Part shown: positions 49,755-56,475 of the stretch, in pieces
How positions within the stretch are numbered: position 1 is the first letter of the stretch
Layout: each line of letters starts with the position of its first letter
From: Crossiella sp. CA-258035
GTDB taxonomy: Bacteria; Actinomycetota; Actinomycetes; Mycobacteriales; Pseudonocardiaceae
Reading direction: 5' to 3'
DNA: 64,000 bases
Assembly: GCF_030064675.1 (NCBI RefSeq)
Contig: NZ_CP116413.1
Location: forward strand, 2,202,001-2,266,000
Made by a program: the position numbers and the translations under genes
The notes under the pieces: generated by a model
What the model saw: only the letters and a program-made list of their open reading frames with translations
Told to the model about the DNA's origin: nothing
Databases searched by the model: none

Positions 49755-50148
49755 TTGAGTGGTCGATCACTCATTGCGTCGGTCTGTGAGGCTCGGGTGT
49801 CCCCCGTCCCCGTCCCCGTCCCTGCCCCTGCCCCTGCTGGTGCTGGTGCCGTGCTGTGCTGTGCCGTGCGAATGCCATGCCATGCCATGCCATGCCATGC
49901 CATGCCATGCCATGCGCCGCGCCGCGTGCCGTGCCGTGCCGTGCGACGTGCCGTGCCGTGCGACGTGTACGGGCTGGACTGGGCCGGGCCGGGCCGTGTT
50001 GTGTCGTGCAGTGCGGGTGCCATGTCAGTGCCAGTACCCGTGCCGGTGTTGGCGGCGTGGGTCAGTGAGTGGTCGATCACTCACTGCCTGGGCGTGCTGA
50101 GTGGTTGATCGCTCACTGGGGTAGGGCATTTAGTGGTCGACCACTCAC
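49755..50148. repeat. Four dispersed 20-bp palindromes (island 2)
   Basis: Copies lie at 49755-49774, 50065-50084, 50097-50116 and 50129-50148. The copy at 50065 extends to a 24-bp near-palindrome starting CAGTGAGTGG. The whole stretch 49605-50299 (695 bp) has no believable gene; the long reading frames in it are products of the repeats. The arms match those of the two operators on either side. Confidence 0.85.
49801..49970 (+). repeat. Pentamer-based low-complexity tract
   Basis: The tract runs from CCCGT and CCCTG units through GTGCT and then eight full ATGCC units (49872-49911) to GTGCC units, including a doubled GTGCCGTGCCGTGCGAC (about 49936-49965). Neighbouring blocks share the five-base period. 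It lies between palindrome copies and has no coding sense. Confidence 0.85.
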
Positions 50149-50942: not shown

Positions 50943-51284
50943 TCAGCGGCGGGGGCGGGGCCACCAGCGGCGGCGGGGTTTGGGGAGGTGGCCTTGGGTG
51001 ACCAGCCAGTCGGCGAAGGTGTTGGCGTCTGTGCGGGCGCCGACGCCTTCCCGGCGGGGGTGCGTGGTGGCGTACGCGTCGAACAGTTCGCGGAACCGTT
51101 CGCCCAGTCGCTCGGGGAGATCGGGGCGCAGGGCGGCGGTGACGCGGCGGCGTTTGGCGCGCAGGGCCTGGGACTGGGCTTGGAGGCGGGTGGGGTTGAA
51201 GCCGGTGGGGAGCGGGCCGTTGGCCAGCAGGGCGTGCAGGAGGGTGGACTGGGCTGCGGCCAGGCGGGTGCGGGGGTCGGTCAT
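50943..51284 (-). CDS. Small partner of DUF692 enzyme (SCO6045-like)
   Basis: This 113-residue basic protein is last in a five-gene operon and overlaps the DUF692 gene as ATGA. The middle has [31 protein letters not shown], and the end is very basic and Trp-rich ([10 protein letters not shown]). DUF692 enzymes often need a small partner (MbnC for MbnB, DUF2063 proteins for BufB) that binds the substrate peptide. This protein resembles, from memory, the SCO6045-like family and is proposed to play that role. No catalytic motif is seen. Confidence 0.75.
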
Positions 51285-52096
51285 CGGGGGGCCTCGACCA
51301 CTGCGCGAATGGCAGCTAGTTCGGTGGCGAGTTCGGCGTCTGGGGGGTAGGCGTCGTCGCGTTCCAGGAGGACGCCGGGTGGGGTGACTCGGGCGCACAG
51401 GTCGGCGAGCAGGTCCAGGACCTGCTGGGGGACGGCGTGGGCGTGGGTGTCGTGGTAGAGGCCGTGTTCGGTGGTGCCACCGGCGACGTGCACGTAGGCC
51501 AGGCGTTCCAGGGGCAGGGTGGTGAGGAACTCTTCCGGGTCGGTGCCCAGGTTGAGGTTGTTGGCGTGCAGGTTGGCCACGTCCACCAGCAGAAGACAGT
51601 CAGTGCGTTCGGCCAGTTCGGTGAGGAACTGGGCCTCGGTGAGCTCGTTGCCGGGCCAGTCGATCAGGGCGGCCACGTTCTCCAGCGCCAGCGGGACCGG
51701 GAGGTCGCGTTGGGCGTCTTTGACGTTGGCGCACAGCACATCCAGCGCGTCTCGGGTGCGCGGGACGGGCATCAGGTGGCCCGCTTCGATGCCGCCTGCC
51801 CTGACGAAGGCCACGTGGTCGCTCACCAGCGGGGCGCCCAGGCGTTCGGCGATGGTGGCGAGGTGGTGGACTCGTTGGGGCACAACGGGGTCCGCGCCGC
51901 CCAGGGACAGGGTCACCGCGTGCGGGAGGACCGGGACTCCTCTGGCGCGCAGGATCTCCAGGGACTCCGGGAGGGTGGGGCCGGACAGGTTCTCGGCCAC
52001 CACCTCCACGAAGTCGACCTCGGGCAGGCGTTCCACGGTCAGGTCGATCTCCGGGCGCCAGCCGATGCCGACGCCCAGGTGCGGGATCCGGGTCAT
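51281..52096 (-). CDS. DUF692 multinuclear iron oxygenase (MNIO, MbnB-like)
   Basis: This 271-residue TIM-barrel protein has the DUF692 landmarks: GVGIGWR (8-14), [19 protein letters not shown] with His59, SDH (92-94), ALEN (Glu139), [10 protein letters not shown] (Asp172, Asn175), YVHVAG (His203), DTHAHAVP (Asp216, His218) and LLERDD (Glu245). These supply the metal ligands of the multi-iron site. Known members (MbnB, TglH, BufB) modify cysteine or neighbouring residues in ribosomal peptides. The ATG at 52096 overlaps the upstream membrane-protein stop as ATGA, and its own stop overlaps the small partner, so all three are coupled. Confidence 0.92.
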
Positions 52097-52974
52097 CCGC
52101 CGCACCCACCGCCGCCTCCGCCGCTGCTGCCACCGCAGCCGCCGCCTCCGCCGCCGGAGCCGCAGCTGCTGCCGCCGCCCGCGCCGCCGGTGTCGGGGGC
52201 CAGGCCCGCGGCGATGGCGGAGTCGGGGTGCGAGCTCATTCCGTGGAACGCCACCAGGAACAGCACTTCGGCGCTCACCACTGAGGCGGCCGTGTTGAGC
52301 AGGGTGTTGTCCGAGCGCCTGCGCGCGGCCTCGGTTCGGGCGCGTTCCAGCGCGCGGCGGCCGAGGGTGGTGGCCTTGGGGCCGGGGACCAGGGCGGCGG
52401 CCAGGGTCAGGATGGCGGTCAGGGTCAGCAGGAAGACCAGGAAGCCGACGGGTTTGCCGTTGCTGACGCCGTCGGCGAGGCGGAGCGCGCCGACCAGCGC
52501 GACCGGTGCGAAGCAGGCGGCGGCGGAGAACCGGGCCGTGCGGGCGCGCTCCGGGTGCACCAGCAGGTTCGCCTGGATCAGGCGCTGGCGCAGCTCACCC
52601 AGCTCGGGGGAGCGGTTCAGCTGTTTGGTCGCGGCTTCCACGCCGTCGGCCGGTTTGCGGTCCCGCACGGCCGTCAGCACCCGGCTGTCGACCATGGACT
52701 CCGCCTGCTTGCCGGTGGCCGCCGGGCGCGTGCCCCGGCTGACCCGCAGCGCGTCGGTGGCGACCAGCCGGGCCACGGCCGCCTCCACCAGGCGGCGGGT
52801 GCCGCCGGAGAGGTAGGCCGCCTCGTCCACGGTCAGCTCAGGGGTGCGCGGGTGCGCGCCGGTGAGCTTGCGCGCGGACAGGCGGCGGCGGATGGCCACC
52901 GCGACGGTGACGATCAGCGCCAGTGCGTACAGGCCGAGGAACTCCGGGCCCGTCAGGCCCCACGTGTCGTGCAT
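52093..52974 (-). CDS. TIGR04222-type membrane protein with Gly/Cys tail (3 Cys)
   Basis: This 293-residue protein starts with the TIGR04222-like [12 protein letters not shown] and has one membrane segment at residues 12-28, a cytoplasmic domain, then two membrane segments near residues 148-200. The last 31 residues are Gly/Ser-rich with three cysteines in [14 protein letters not shown] and GGCGG at the very end. A soluble modifying enzyme could reach this tail if it is cytoplasmic, as the positive-inside pattern suggests. It directly precedes the DUF692 gene (ATGA overlap) and is the best candidate substrate. Confidence 0.85.
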
Positions 52975-53010
52975 GTCGCCACCCCCAGGTGCCGTTGTGG
53001 TGTAACGGGA

Positions 53011-53913
53011 TCAACCCCCGCAGCCGCCGCCCCCGCCCCCGCCGCAGCTGCTGCCACCGCTGCTGGAGGAGGAACAGGACGAGGAGGAGGAACTGCTGCC
53101 CGAGCAGGAAGAACCGCCTGCCGAGCCGCCGCCCGAGCCCGGCAGCGCCAGCACCTTGCTGACCTCGTCGTCCGGGAAGGCCGCGAGGCCGCCGATCGCG
53201 ACCAGCATCGCCGCGCCGCCGAGCAGGGCCAGCTGGTCGTTGTTGTCCGCCCTCGGTTCGTGGCGAACGGTGGTCTGGAACTGGGTGAGCGTGCGCACAC
53301 CCGCCTGGGTGAGCCGGTTGACCTTGGCCAGCAACGCGATCAGGGCCAGCACCGCGGTCAGCGCCAGCAGCCAGACCAGGTAGCCGACCGGCCTGCCGTT
53401 GCCGGTGCCGTCGGCCACCCGGACCACGCCGATCAGCAGCAGCACCGCGAAGGCCGCCGCCCCGCGCAGCCTGGCCTGCCACTGCTGCCTGCGCGAGACC
53501 ACCAGGCCCAGCGTCTCCAGCCGGTTGCGCACCTGTCCCACCAGCGGGTGATCCTCGAACTTCGCCCGCAGGCTGCCCAGCGTGGCCGCCGGGTTCGCCC
53601 TGGAGTTCAGCTCGGCCAGGATCGCCTGGTCCAGTGGGTGCCGCGCGGTCAGGCCGGTGACGCTGAGCCAGCTGCCCCTGGCGGCGCGCAGGCTGCCCGC
53701 CTCCAGCATCCTGGCCACCGCGGTGAAGACCACCTGGGCCCCGCCGCCGGCGAGGTAGGCCACGTCGTCCGCGCTGAGCCGCCCCGCACCGGGGGCCATC
53801 TCGGCGCGCCGGACCGACCGGCGCGCCCAGACCGCCACCACGATCGAGACAACCAGCCCCAGGCAGTACAGGAGCAGGAACTGCGGCCCGGTCAGGCCCC
53901 ACGTCTCGGTCAT
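53011..53913 (-). CDS. TIGR04222-type membrane protein with Ser/Gly/Cys tail (4 Cys)
   Basis: This 300-residue paralogue has the same layout (WGLTGPQFLLLY start; membrane segments near residues 10-28 and 145-190). Its tail is Ser-rich and then Gly-rich with four cysteines ([31 protein letters not shown]), and it also ends in CGG. The ribosome site is GAGGTGGG. It lies 36 bp before the next paralogue in the same operon. Confidence 0.85.
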   Translation of the reverse strand: MTETWGLTGPQFLLLYCLGLVVSIVVAVWARRSVRRAEMAPGAGRLSADDVAYLAGGGAQVVFTAVARMLEAGSLRAARGSWLSVTGLTARHPLDQAILAELNSRANPAATLGSLRAKFEDHPLVGQVRNRLETLGLVVSRRQQWQARLRGAAAFAVLLLIGVVRVADGTGNGRPVGYLVWLLALTAVLALIALLAKVNRLTQAGVRTLTQFQTTVRHEPRADNNDQLALLGGAAMLVAIGGLAAFPDDEVSKVLALPGSGGGSAGGSSCSGSSSSSSSCSSSSSGGSSCGGGGGGGCGG

Positions 53914-53955
53914 CGCCCACCTCGTGTCGCTCTTGGTTGGGGCGACGGTAGCGCG

Positions 53956-54897
53956 TCAGCCGCCGCCACCGCCGCCGCAACCACCCCCTCCGCCACCACA
54001 GCTCGCGCCGCCCCCGCCGCCCCCGCCACCACCGTCGCCGATGGTGCCCCCGGCGGCGAACCCGCCGGCGTACCCGGCGTAGGAGCCGCTGCTGTCGTAA
54101 CGGGACCCCCAACGGCCGCCGCGGGCCGCCTTCAGGTCGCGCTGGGTCTGCGGCTGGGCCGAATGGCTCAGCAGCGCGGCGCGCACCCGGGCGTCCGGGT
54201 AGGCCGAAACGCCTTGCCGCGCAACGAGACTGGCCGCACTGTCCGAAGTGGACCTCATGGCCTGCTCGACCGCGGCGTCACCGGCCTGGGTGCGCCAGGC
54301 CACCGGCAGCCAGGCGGCGAAACCCGCCAGCAACCCGGTCAGCAGCAGGAACAGCATCAGGTACCCGACCGGGTAGCCCTGGCTGCCACCGTCGATCGCC
54401 CGCCACAGGCCGATCACGCCGAGCCCGATCAGCGGCAGCGCGGAGCGCAAACCCATGCCGGGCAACCGCTCCGGCGGCACCAGCAGCCCCCGGTCGGCCA
54501 GCCTGGCCCCCACATCGGCCGCGGCCTGGCTGTCCGCGACCCGGTTCACCAGCAGTTGCAGCGTGCGCCGGCCGGTGTCCCCTGTGTAGTCGCACACCGC
54601 GCGGGCCAGCGGATCCGTGGTCCGGAGTGGGCCGGTGCCGCTCACGTAGCCCCCACGCGAGGCCCGCAGCACATCCCGTTCCAGCAGCGCCGCGACCGCG
54701 GTCTCCACCGCCCGTGGCGCGCCCCCGACCAGGAAGGCGAGCTCGACGTCGGTCAGCTCACCCGGCCTGCTGGCCGCGGTGGGATCCGGCCGCCGTCCGG
54801 CGATCCGGATCCACCCCGCCAGCACCAGCGCCACCACCAGGCCGATGGCGTACAACTGCAAGAACTCCGGGCCGGTCAGTCCCCATGGATTTTCCAT
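53956..54897 (-). CDS. TIGR04222-type membrane protein with Gly/Cys tail (2 Cys)
   Basis: This 313-residue protein is the first gene of the operon. It begins [12 protein letters not shown] and carries the same membrane pattern. The tail is longer, with an SGSYAGYAGG linker, then a run of glycines around two cysteines ([16 protein letters not shown]). The ribosome site is GAGGGGG. The 156 bp between it and the upstream msrB gene should hold the operon promoter. Confidence 0.85.
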   Translation of the reverse strand: MENPWGLTGPEFLQLYAIGLVVALVLAGWIRIAGRRPDPTAASRPGELTDVELAFLVGGAPRAVETAVAALLERDVLRASRGGYVSGTGPLRTTDPLARAVCDYTGDTGRRTLQLLVNRVADSQAAADVGARLADRGLLVPPERLPGMGLRSALPLIGLGVIGLWRAIDGGSQGYPVGYLMLFLLLTGLLAGFAAWLPVAWRTQAGDAAVEQAMRSTSDSAASLVARQGVSAYPDARVRAALLSHSAQPQTQRDLKAARGGRWGSRYDSSGSYAGYAGGFAAGGTIGDGGGGGGGGGASCGGGGGGCGGGGGG

Positions 54898-55053: not shown

Positions 55054-55479
55054 TCAGCCTTCTTGCTCGGTCGGGTCCGCCACCAGGCGCAGGCTGACGC
55101 TGTTGATGCAGAAGCGCTGATCGGTCGGCGTCGGGAAGCCCTCGCCCTCGAAGACGTGCCCGAGGTGGCTGTGGCAGGTCGCGCAGAGCACCTCGGTGCG
55201 CACCGCGCCCATGCTGCGGTCCTCGCGCAGCACCACCGCGTCCCCGGCCAGCGGGGTGTAGAAGGACGGCCAGCCGCAGTGCGACTCGAACTTGGTGTCG
55301 CTGCGGAACAGCTCGGCGCCACAGGCCCGGCACTCGTAGATGCCCTCGGTCTTGGTGTCGGTGTACTCGCCGGTCCACGCCCGCTCGGTGCCCGCCTGGC
55401 GCAGCACCCGGTACTCCTCGGGAGTCAGCTGCTCCCGCCACTCCTGCTCGGTCTTGACGACCTTCGGACCCTGTTCCAT
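55054..55479 (-). CDS. msrB: Peptide methionine sulfoxide reductase MsrB
   Basis: This 141-residue enzyme reduces the R-epimer of methionine sulfoxide in proteins. Two CxxC pairs (Cys50/Cys53 and Cys99/Cys102) bind zinc, the catalytic cysteine is Cys124 in RFCINS, and ESHCGWPSFY and HLGHVFEGEG are family signatures. It matches Rv2674 and ends the conserved block. It reads toward the DUF692 operon but is separated from it by 156 bp. Confidence 0.96.
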   Translation of the reverse strand: MEQGPKVVKTEQEWREQLTPEEYRVLRQAGTERAWTGEYTDTKTEGIYECRACGAELFRSDTKFESHCGWPSFYTPLAGDAVVLREDRSMGAVRTEVLCATCHSHLGHVFEGEGFPTPTDQRFCINSVSLRLVADPTEQEG

Positions 55480-55496
55480 GCCACCACGCTAATACT

Positions 55497-55805
55497 TCAG
55501 AACAGGAACAGCAGAATGGTGTTGAGCGCGCCGGAGAAGGTGAGCACCAGGCCGATCAGGATCAGGCCGGTGACCACCACCGCGGCCAGCCGCCAGCCGC
55601 CGCCGACCCGGTTGGCCGAGTCGGCGAACTCGCTCACCCCGGCCAGGTAGCCCTCCACGGTGTAGGGCTTGGGGGCGTGCTCGATCCGGTCGAGGTGCTT
55701 GGCGAAGGCCTGCGCCTCGGGATCGTGCGGGTCCAGCCCGACCAGGTCCTCACCGAACCGCCCTGGCGGGCCCTGCGGCTCGTCATCCGGTTCCGTGCGT
55801 CGCAT
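55497..55805 (-). CDS. Small tail-anchored membrane protein
   Basis: This 102-residue protein has an acidic, Pro-rich N-terminal half and one membrane stretch at about residues 64-100 (WRLAAVVVTGLILIGLVLTF and LNTILLFLF, perhaps two close segments). The ATG at 55805 is used; an extension to 55847 would overlap the divergent NUDIX gene. The family is not recognised, though its context near msrB is typical of actinobacterial DUF-type proteins. Confidence 0.7.
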   Translation of the reverse strand: MRRTEPDDEPQGPPGRFGEDLVGLDPHDPEAQAFAKHLDRIEHAPKPYTVEGYLAGVSEFADSANRVGGGWRLAAVVVTGLILIGLVLTFSGALNTILLFLF

Positions 55806-55830
55806 ACCCGCAACGGTAGCGTGCGGAGCT

Positions 55831-56475
55831 GTGAACAGGGCAGACACCGATACCGCGCCGCAATACGACCCCGCCCTCGGCCTGGCCGGGCTGCCGGGCG
55901 CGCCCCGCTGGGAACCCGCAGGTCAGCGCGGTCTGTACCGGAGCGAGTGGGTGAACGTGGACCTGGTGGCGGTGCGCCCGCCGACCGCGCCGCCGTACGA
56001 GCACCACGTGGTCCGGATGGCCGACGCGGTGGCCGTGGTGCTGGAACACCCCGAGCGCGGGGTGCTGATGCTGCACCGGCACCGGTTCATCACCGACACC
56101 ACCGGCCTGGAGCTACCGGCGGGTGCCATCGATCCTGGTGAGGACCCGGTGACCGCTGCGGTCCGGGAGACCGCGGAGGAGACCGGCTGGGCCGCTGAGG
56201 AGCCCCGGCTGTACCTGTCCCGGTGCGTCTCCAACGGCCGCAGCGACCAGCTCTTCCACTTCGTGCACGCGCGGGTGGGGCAGTGGCTGGGCGGGCCGGA
56301 GAACCACGACGAGGGCCACGCGGTGTGGGTCGGGCACGAGCACCTGCGCGAGGTGCTCGGCGGCGACCTGGTCAGCTGCGCGCCCTCGCACCTGGGCCTG
56401 CTGCACGCGATGACCTTCGGTTTGCTGCGGAACGGGCCGGTGGGCGGTAGCGTCCACGCCCGTGAGCAGGGGTGA
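55831..56475 (+). CDS. NUDIX hydrolase
   Basis: This 214-residue protein has a complete Nudix box (GAIDPGEDPVTAAVRETAEETGW, GX5EX7REUXEEXGU pattern) preceded by TTGLELPAG. This resembles ADP-ribose or nucleoside-diphosphate-sugar pyrophosphatases. The GTG at 55831 gives a normal length. Its 3' end overlaps the polymerase gene by 14 nt, so the two are co-translated; a link to nucleotide clean-up and repair is possible. Confidence 0.9.
   Translation: MNRADTDTAPQYDPALGLAGLPGAPRWEPAGQRGLYRSEWVNVDLVAVRPPTAPPYEHHVVRMADAVAVVLEHPERGVLMLHRHRFITDTTGLELPAGAIDPGEDPVTAAVRETAEETGWAAEEPRLYLSRCVSNGRSDQLFHFVHARVGQWLGGPENHDEGHAVWVGHEHLREVLGGDLVSCAPSHLGLLHAMTFGLLRNGPVGGSVHAREQG

Follow-up and report, generated by a model that had tools for sequence, protein, structure and literature searches.

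The window analysed here, a 64,000-nucleotide stretch of the genome of Crossiella sp. CA-258035 (contig NZ_CP116413.1), contains on its minus strand a five-gene operon that probably encodes a protein-modification system, in which an MNIO (DUF692) enzyme and its small partner would modify the cysteine tails of TIGR04222 membrane proteins. Read 5' to 3' from 54897 to 50943, the operon starts with three genes for such membrane proteins, T1 (53956..54897, 313 residues), T2 (53011..53913, 300 residues) and T3 (52093..52974, 293 residues), all of which passed the NCBIfam TIGR04222 domain cut-off of 43 bits (118.8, 129.1 and 133.7 bits, respectively). They are followed by the gene of the MNIO (51281..52096, 271 residues, PF05114) and by that of a 113-residue protein (50943..51284), a short MNIO partner with a weak likeness to DUF2063, of the kind that Antoine et al. 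call PME-type 2. T1 and T2 are separated by 42 nucleotides and T2 and T3 by 36, and ATGA overlaps join the T3 stop to the MNIO start and the MNIO stop to the start of the 113-residue gene. The mechanical open reading frame (ORF) of the MNIO runs from a GTG at 52105 to 51281; the ATG at 52096, overlapping the T3 stop, is the likelier start. The Gly-rich tail of T1 carries two cysteines and ends in six glycines, while the Ser/Gly tail of T2 with four cysteines and the tail of T3 with three both end in CGG. A sequence-only reading of the window had described this gene make-up, the ATGA joins of the last three genes and the Gly/Ser-rich cysteine tails, and profile scores and ORFs agree with it on all of these points. 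The whole Crossiella genome harbors one MNIO, which is 97% identical to its counterpart in Crossiella sp. SN42, and, besides T1 to T3, one TIGR04222 match below the cut-off. A scan for promoters returned no promoter-like site, and the terminator scan gave one terminator-like site versus 1.5 in shuffled sequences.

The MNIO matched PF05114 with 279 bits (cut-off 25), its residues 11 to 270 covering positions 1 to 262 of the 263-position profile. Alignment with the PDB entries 8hci_D and 3bww and with MbnB identified the ligand residues H62, H97, E142, D175, N178, H206, D219, H221 and E248 (numbered from the GTG at 52105), and each of the nine was conserved in 95 to 100% of 82 aligned MNIOs. The metal ligands, whose loss would have spoken against the sequence-only reading, are therefore intact. 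The entry 8hci_D is listed as a DUF692 family protein and would be TglH, judging from its sister entry 8hi7, which a passage of PMC12452194 gives for TglI. In HvfB, residues N175, D242 and H244 (site 3) are essential according to the text of PMC13419390, and they appear to correspond to N178, D219 and H221 of the window MNIO by a motif match made through the 3bww alignment, HvfB itself lying outside that alignment. None of the NCBIfam equivalog cut-offs was reached, neither for BufB (NF050167; 197.4 versus 310 bits) nor for HvfB (162.9 versus 360), ApyH (122.8 versus 400), ChrH (51.9 versus 600) or MbnB (49.2 versus 325).

Three sets of loci were compared with the operon. The class sample comprised 296 genomes, with TIGR04222 over the cut-off in 84 and MNIO in 76, from which 131 loci were fetched. 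A total of 108 TIGR04222 and 85 MNIO places were entered and the window's own four genes added; 82 of the resulting 86 MNIOs were long enough for alignment. TIGR04222 rows of 39.2 bits or less (except one, which passes together with its in-frame neighbor), second halves of split matches and two MNIO fragment rows of genome G177 were left out. Nine TIGR04222 candidates per genome were scored fully in this sample, so weak genes may be missed. The family sample covered 200 genomes of the bacterium's own family, of which 114 had an MNIO and 119 TIGR04222 over the cut-off; 60 of its more than 110 MNIO loci were fetched, hand-chosen to span genera. The named set consisted of the 80 loci closest to the window MNIO and shares assemblies with the family set, so that these two are not independent of each other. 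A tail was scored as a Cys tail if the last 40 residues contained at least two cysteines and at least 60% Gly, Ser and Cys, start codons of carriers being set by rule or by eye.

In the class sample, the partner was encoded by its own gene at 34 of the 82 MNIOs and formed a C-terminal fusion with the MNIO at another 36. The fused region is homologous to the window partner (hhalign 99.9%, E 9e-33), and since a homologue of the 113-residue protein is fused to the MNIO in other genomes, this protein behaves as an MNIO partner, as the sequence-only reading had supposed. Partners that are seemingly missing can thus be fused. Against PF09836 (DUF2063, PME-type 1) the window partner scored 14.8 bits, below the gathering score of 27.2, and only 2 of 22 relatives matched this family at E 0.1 (the partner profile was built from 23 downstream ORFs under hand-set filter rules, 22 of which were aligned). 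It belongs to PME-type 2 in that its gene follows the MNIO and the DUF2063 signature does not rise above the cut-off. In PDB profile and fold searches the best match was 7dz9_C, and NGO1945 (3dee) and TglI, which the partner may nonetheless resemble, were absent from the lists; the best hit of the PDB profile search had an E value of 0.17 and was an unrelated protein. Going by its length, the partner would lack a second (RRE) domain. The remaining 12 MNIOs were partnerless, and at least two of them (L150 and L124) have in its place a true DUF2063 gene next downstream (72.2 and 77.3 bits) and no Cys tail.

We then asked how closely Cys tails track the MNIO. Within 4 kb and on the MNIO strand, a Cys-tailed ORF was present at 49 of the 70 MNIOs with a partner versus 1 of the 12 without (L162), while the opposite strand, used as a control, gave 2 of 82 in the class sample and 2 of 80 in the named set. 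Among the 86 TIGR04222 genomes of the class, those with a partner-bearing MNIO had a Cys tail in 45 cases and none in 15, compared to 2 and 24 for the others (Fisher p 5.6e-9). The same comparison per genus, the only step by which relatedness was handled, gave 22/0 versus 2/10 (p 5e-7), and counting any MNIO match instead gave 45/17 versus 2/22 genomes. Both class exceptions without MNIO lie near contig ends (the gene of G067 is 144 bases away, and the ORF of G033 is cut by the contig), and the 15 genomes with an MNIO and no Cys-tailed TIGR04222 protein are 14 members of one genus, g23, and G160.

Similarly, in the family set, 51 of the 53 partner-bearing MNIO loci had a Cys tail, compared to none of the seven partnerless ones; of the two misses, the tail of L214 looks Cys-rich by eye and falls under the threshold, and at L228 the strand of the MNIO lacks a Cys tail. 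The four other fetched genomes of the genus (L192 to L195) encode three Cys-tailed copies each, and Cys tails are absent from five family genomes with TIGR04222 and no MNIO (G312, G397, G438, G451 and G474). In the named set, the partner was found at all 80 loci and the Cys tail at 75. There, the Cys tails of L263 were dropped by the position filter, L323 has none, and in L293, L318 and L322 a contig end lies within 520 bases of the MNIO. The co-occurrence proposed as a check by the sequence-only reading is thus strong in the class, family and named sets, provided that MNIO and partner are considered together. A separate observation concerns L330, a record titled as a Phycisphaerales metagenome-assembled genome, which shows the order TIGR04222-MNIO-partner with a Cys tail and an MNIO 59% identical to that of the window; it represents either a transfer or a misbinned contig.

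The composition of the tails follows the same pattern. Where the genome has a partner-bearing MNIO, 55 of the 56 TIGR04222 proteins with a Gly/Ser/Asp-rich tail contain at least one cysteine among their last 40 residues; elsewhere, 1 of 12 does (that of G067; 11 of the 12 come without an MNIO match and one with a partnerless MNIO). The Cys fraction of these tails was 0.096 versus 0.0083, compared to 0.0058 versus 0.0042 in the TIGR04222 domains of the same proteins. Across the 745 cysteines scored in the 146 TIGR04222 proteins with a Cys tail from the named loci, the residue before was Ser or Gly in 726 cases and the residue after was Gly or Ser in 723. The commonest spacing between cysteines was five residues, and in all but one of these proteins (145/146) two to eight residues followed the last cysteine.

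The Cys tail was not restricted to one type of protein. At 10 of the 82 class MNIOs it was found on a carrier other than a recognized TIGR04222 protein, namely, on eight single-helix proteins of 83 to 119 residues and on two proteins of about 450 residues without a hydrophobic segment (L141 and L164); a Pfam search with the soluble carrier of L141 returned nothing at E 0.01. The MNIOs with such carriers fall at three separate places in the MNIO tree, and the tail, rather than the carrier, looks like the constant part. We tentatively suggest that the Gly/Ser/Cys tail may be a portable tag on the cytoplasmic side, modified on whichever carrier bears it (three-helix TIGR04222 proteins, single-helix anchors of 83 to 119 residues or soluble proteins), which would yield anchored intracellular cofactor-like patches instead of secreted peptides. 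In one locus (L079:6469-6663), a possible free Cys/Gly/Ser peptide of 65 residues, with no carrier, lies directly upstream of the MNIO and adjoins a Cys-tailed TIGR04222 ORF and a 153-residue Cys-tailed ORF.

We hypothesize that the MNIO is an iron-binding enzyme which, with the help of the small helical partner, carries out an oxidative modification of cysteines in the disordered Gly/Ser tails of T1 to T3 and, elsewhere, of other carriers. The constant substrate would be the repeated [S/G]-C-[G/S] unit, and the carrier would anchor the tail, mostly at the cytoplasmic face, within reach of the cytosolic enzyme. As product, a heterocycle or thioamide formed from Cys (5-thiooxazole/oxazolone type) would be most likely, and it could serve as an anchored soft-metal (copper-like) binding patch. 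For the products of HvfA and of bufferin, a UV band near 302-305 nm is reported. The sequence-only reading had likewise taken the Cys tails as modification substrates, which is in good agreement with the intact ligands, the strong co-occurrence and the partner; the idea is not new, and the surface location that went with it found no support.

On which side of the membrane the tails lie was assessed, with a single hydropathy scale, from the charge bias of Cys-tailed TIGR04222 proteins; of 49, 36 passed a length and segment filter (T1 fails it) and were used. Basic and acidic residues numbered 3/31 before the first transmembrane segment (TM1), 116/40 after TM1, 109/30 before TM2, 18/34 between TM2 and TM3 and 126/18 after TM3, suggesting that the N terminus is outside and that the soluble domain and the C-terminal part are inside. 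AlphaFold models T2 at a mean pLDDT of 85.3, with helices at residues 9 to 35, 141 to 171 and 177 to 195 and a tail of low confidence. An alternative is that the tails are modified and yet lie outside the membrane, in the periplasm or at the surface, the MNIO acting before translocation and the product working outside, as in bufferins. This is what the topology statement of Antoine et al. 2025 (PMC12452194) implies, and bufferins and oxazolins do carry Sec signal peptides. It is also favored by a fourth hydrophobic segment before the tail, found in 10 of the 36 proteins and in T2 and T3 themselves, so that the tail side of these two is less sure. However, 26 of the 36 lack such a segment at the threshold used, the charge bias places the stretch after TM3 inside, and in the T2 model the corresponding residues 225 to 255 form three short helices and not one spanning helix. 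Moreover, the eight single-helix carriers have two to six basic residues among the 15 that follow the helix (L076 also has three acidic ones), the carriers of L141 and L164 are soluble, and the TIGR04222 carrier of L059 has no membrane segment, that of L060 having one borderline segment. We therefore consider outside tails unlikely. A cytoplasmic tail for most carriers is suggested as the most economical reading by the charge bias, the one AlphaFold model and the single-helix and soluble carriers, and the "surface-anchored" tails of the sequence-only reading are not borne out.

Several observations weigh against tail modification by the MNIO. Some of them would fit a second alternative, in which the tail cysteines serve as metal or redox ligands without being modified, the MNIO being merely co-inherited and acting on something else. 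Sixteen MNIOs of genus g23, which is probably Streptomyces, keep the ligands and the fused partner and have no Cys-tailed neighbor: 13 of these loci have only a Cys-less TIGR04222 protein, and three have none (L038, L073 and L114, the last of which ends at a contig end). In the tree these MNIOs group as one nested clade, whose support of 95/76 does not reach the starred level. A single loss explains the pattern, yet not the persistence of the enzyme, which would have to act on a different substrate, on a tail encoded elsewhere or on nothing at all. A search of the 16 loci for a hidden small Cys precursor (ORF clusters with at least two cysteines in at least five loci) found none among the best 12 clusters: one was the Cys-less-tailed TIGR04222 protein, and the rest look by eye like frame shadows of the MNIO or its neighbors. 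In four g23 genomes (L057, L064, L078 and L083), a distant TIGR04222-like gene has a single tail cysteine. Five more partner-bearing class MNIOs (L145, L099, L069, L062 and L156), as well as L228 of the family set and L323 of the named set, have no Cys-tailed neighbor. Conversely, G388 and G395 (L168, L169 and L185) encode Cys-tailed TIGR04222 proteins and no MNIO was found, with about 1.3 kb beyond the Cys-tailed gene of G395 covered and free of one. Finally, because the window MNIO misses all five equivalog cut-offs, its chemistry cannot be read from its family. Frequent operons of this type without Cys-tailed neighbors had been named beforehand as a finding that would refute the sequence-only reading: most partner-bearing MNIOs do have the tail, while the derived clade of 16 MNIOs and five scattered cases among the 70 do not.

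Unmodified ligands nevertheless seem rather improbable to us, because Gly/Ser/Asp-rich tails contain cysteine in 55/56 versus 1/12 proteins depending on the presence of a partner-bearing MNIO and because the Cys tail adjoins the MNIO on differing carriers, which shared inheritance of a carrier would not explain. A meaningless compositional artefact, in which GGC-to-TGC mutations would turn glycines of the tails into cysteines, the genome being rich in GC, could draw on the low-complexity triplet repeats that encode the tails of T1 and T3; it is hardly credible given a Cys fraction of 0.0083 per residue in the 12 proteins without a partner-bearing MNIO versus 0.096 in the 56 with one, and opposite-strand controls of 2/82 and 2/80. 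The same tail composition and controls led us to reject an origin of the cysteines by chance or drift. Modification of the Cys tails by MNIO and partner thus remains the reading we favor, and we regard the finding as real and functionally plausible.

A few features lie outside this argument. Upstream of the operon, at 55054-55847, are genes for MsrB and a 116-residue protein. Homologues of these two were found at 56 and 51, respectively, of the 80 loci in the named set and at one each of the 131 class loci, a case of family-level synteny. A longer imperfect array (49846-49967) encloses 8.8 perfect tandem copies of the 5-base unit ATGCC (49872-49915). Residues 81 to 143 of T1 (54469-54657) matched Pfam PF05719 without significance (E 0.071), and the T2 model matched Vps74 in Foldseek, also without significance (probability 0.44, E 1.4), no fold being found with this model at E 0.001. 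Both matches hint only weakly at a resemblance between the soluble domain of TIGR04222 proteins and GPP34/Vps74.

To our knowledge, the MNIO enzymes of known chemistry act on peptides. If some MNIOs also act on tails of proteins retained in the cell, Cys-derived heterocycles would be a general protein modification in actinomycetes. The MNIO-partner fusion offers a simple test enzyme and the single-helix carrier of 83 to 119 residues a small substrate, and the disagreement on topology with Antoine et al. 2025 is directly testable. What most deserves the attention of specialists is the swapping of carriers, the fusion of the partner and the opposite topology.

The central idea of an MNIO modifying TIGR04222 Cys tails is already published, and the Crossiella operon is a further member. 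Cys-rich C termini of TIGR04222 proteins were proposed as MNIO substrates by Antoine et al. 2025 (PMC12452194), the only treatment of these proteins among the papers listed by our literature searches. According to passages of that paper, the TIGR04222-MNIO clusters belong mostly to Actinomycetota, have PME-type 2 partners (with a Saccharothrix example of 115 residues) and in many cases appear without a partner gene; the large TIGR04222 domains and the tail are placed in the periplasm. The window operon resembles these clusters in that the MNIO adjoins Cys-tailed TIGR04222 proteins and has a short PME-type 2 partner. It differs in that the tail is predicted to be cytoplasmic for most carriers and that the partner is often fused to the MNIO in the loci analyzed here. 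In the portions of the paper considered, we noticed no test of tail cysteines against MNIO presence, no MNIO-partner fusion for such clusters and no Gly/Cys-tailed carriers other than TIGR04222. One locus of our sample (L050), in which a peptidyl-tRNA hydrolase relative (PF01981) precedes the MNIO, fits the "adjamnio-II - MNIO - TIGR04222" clusters of that text, which names PF01195 and not PF01981.

Unlike in the methanobactin system MbnB/MbnC, the proposed substrate is a membrane protein tail, and the operon is different as well; the MbnB score is 49.2 versus a cut-off of 325 bits, and the match to MbnC is not significant alone. The bufferin (BufA/BufB/BufC) and oxazolin (HvfA/HvfB/HvfC) systems differ from the window operon in that they act on small precursors exported by way of a Sec signal peptide, whereas the substrate proposed here is a larger membrane protein, and in the partner, which scores below the DUF2063 cut-off and, judging from its length, would have no room for an RRE domain. 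The window operon also resembles both: it shares with them the MNIO family, for which BufB (197.4 bits) and HvfB (162.9 bits) give the best NCBIfam scores, the ligand residues, the pairing of an enzyme with a partner and, in the proposed reading, a Cys-containing substrate.

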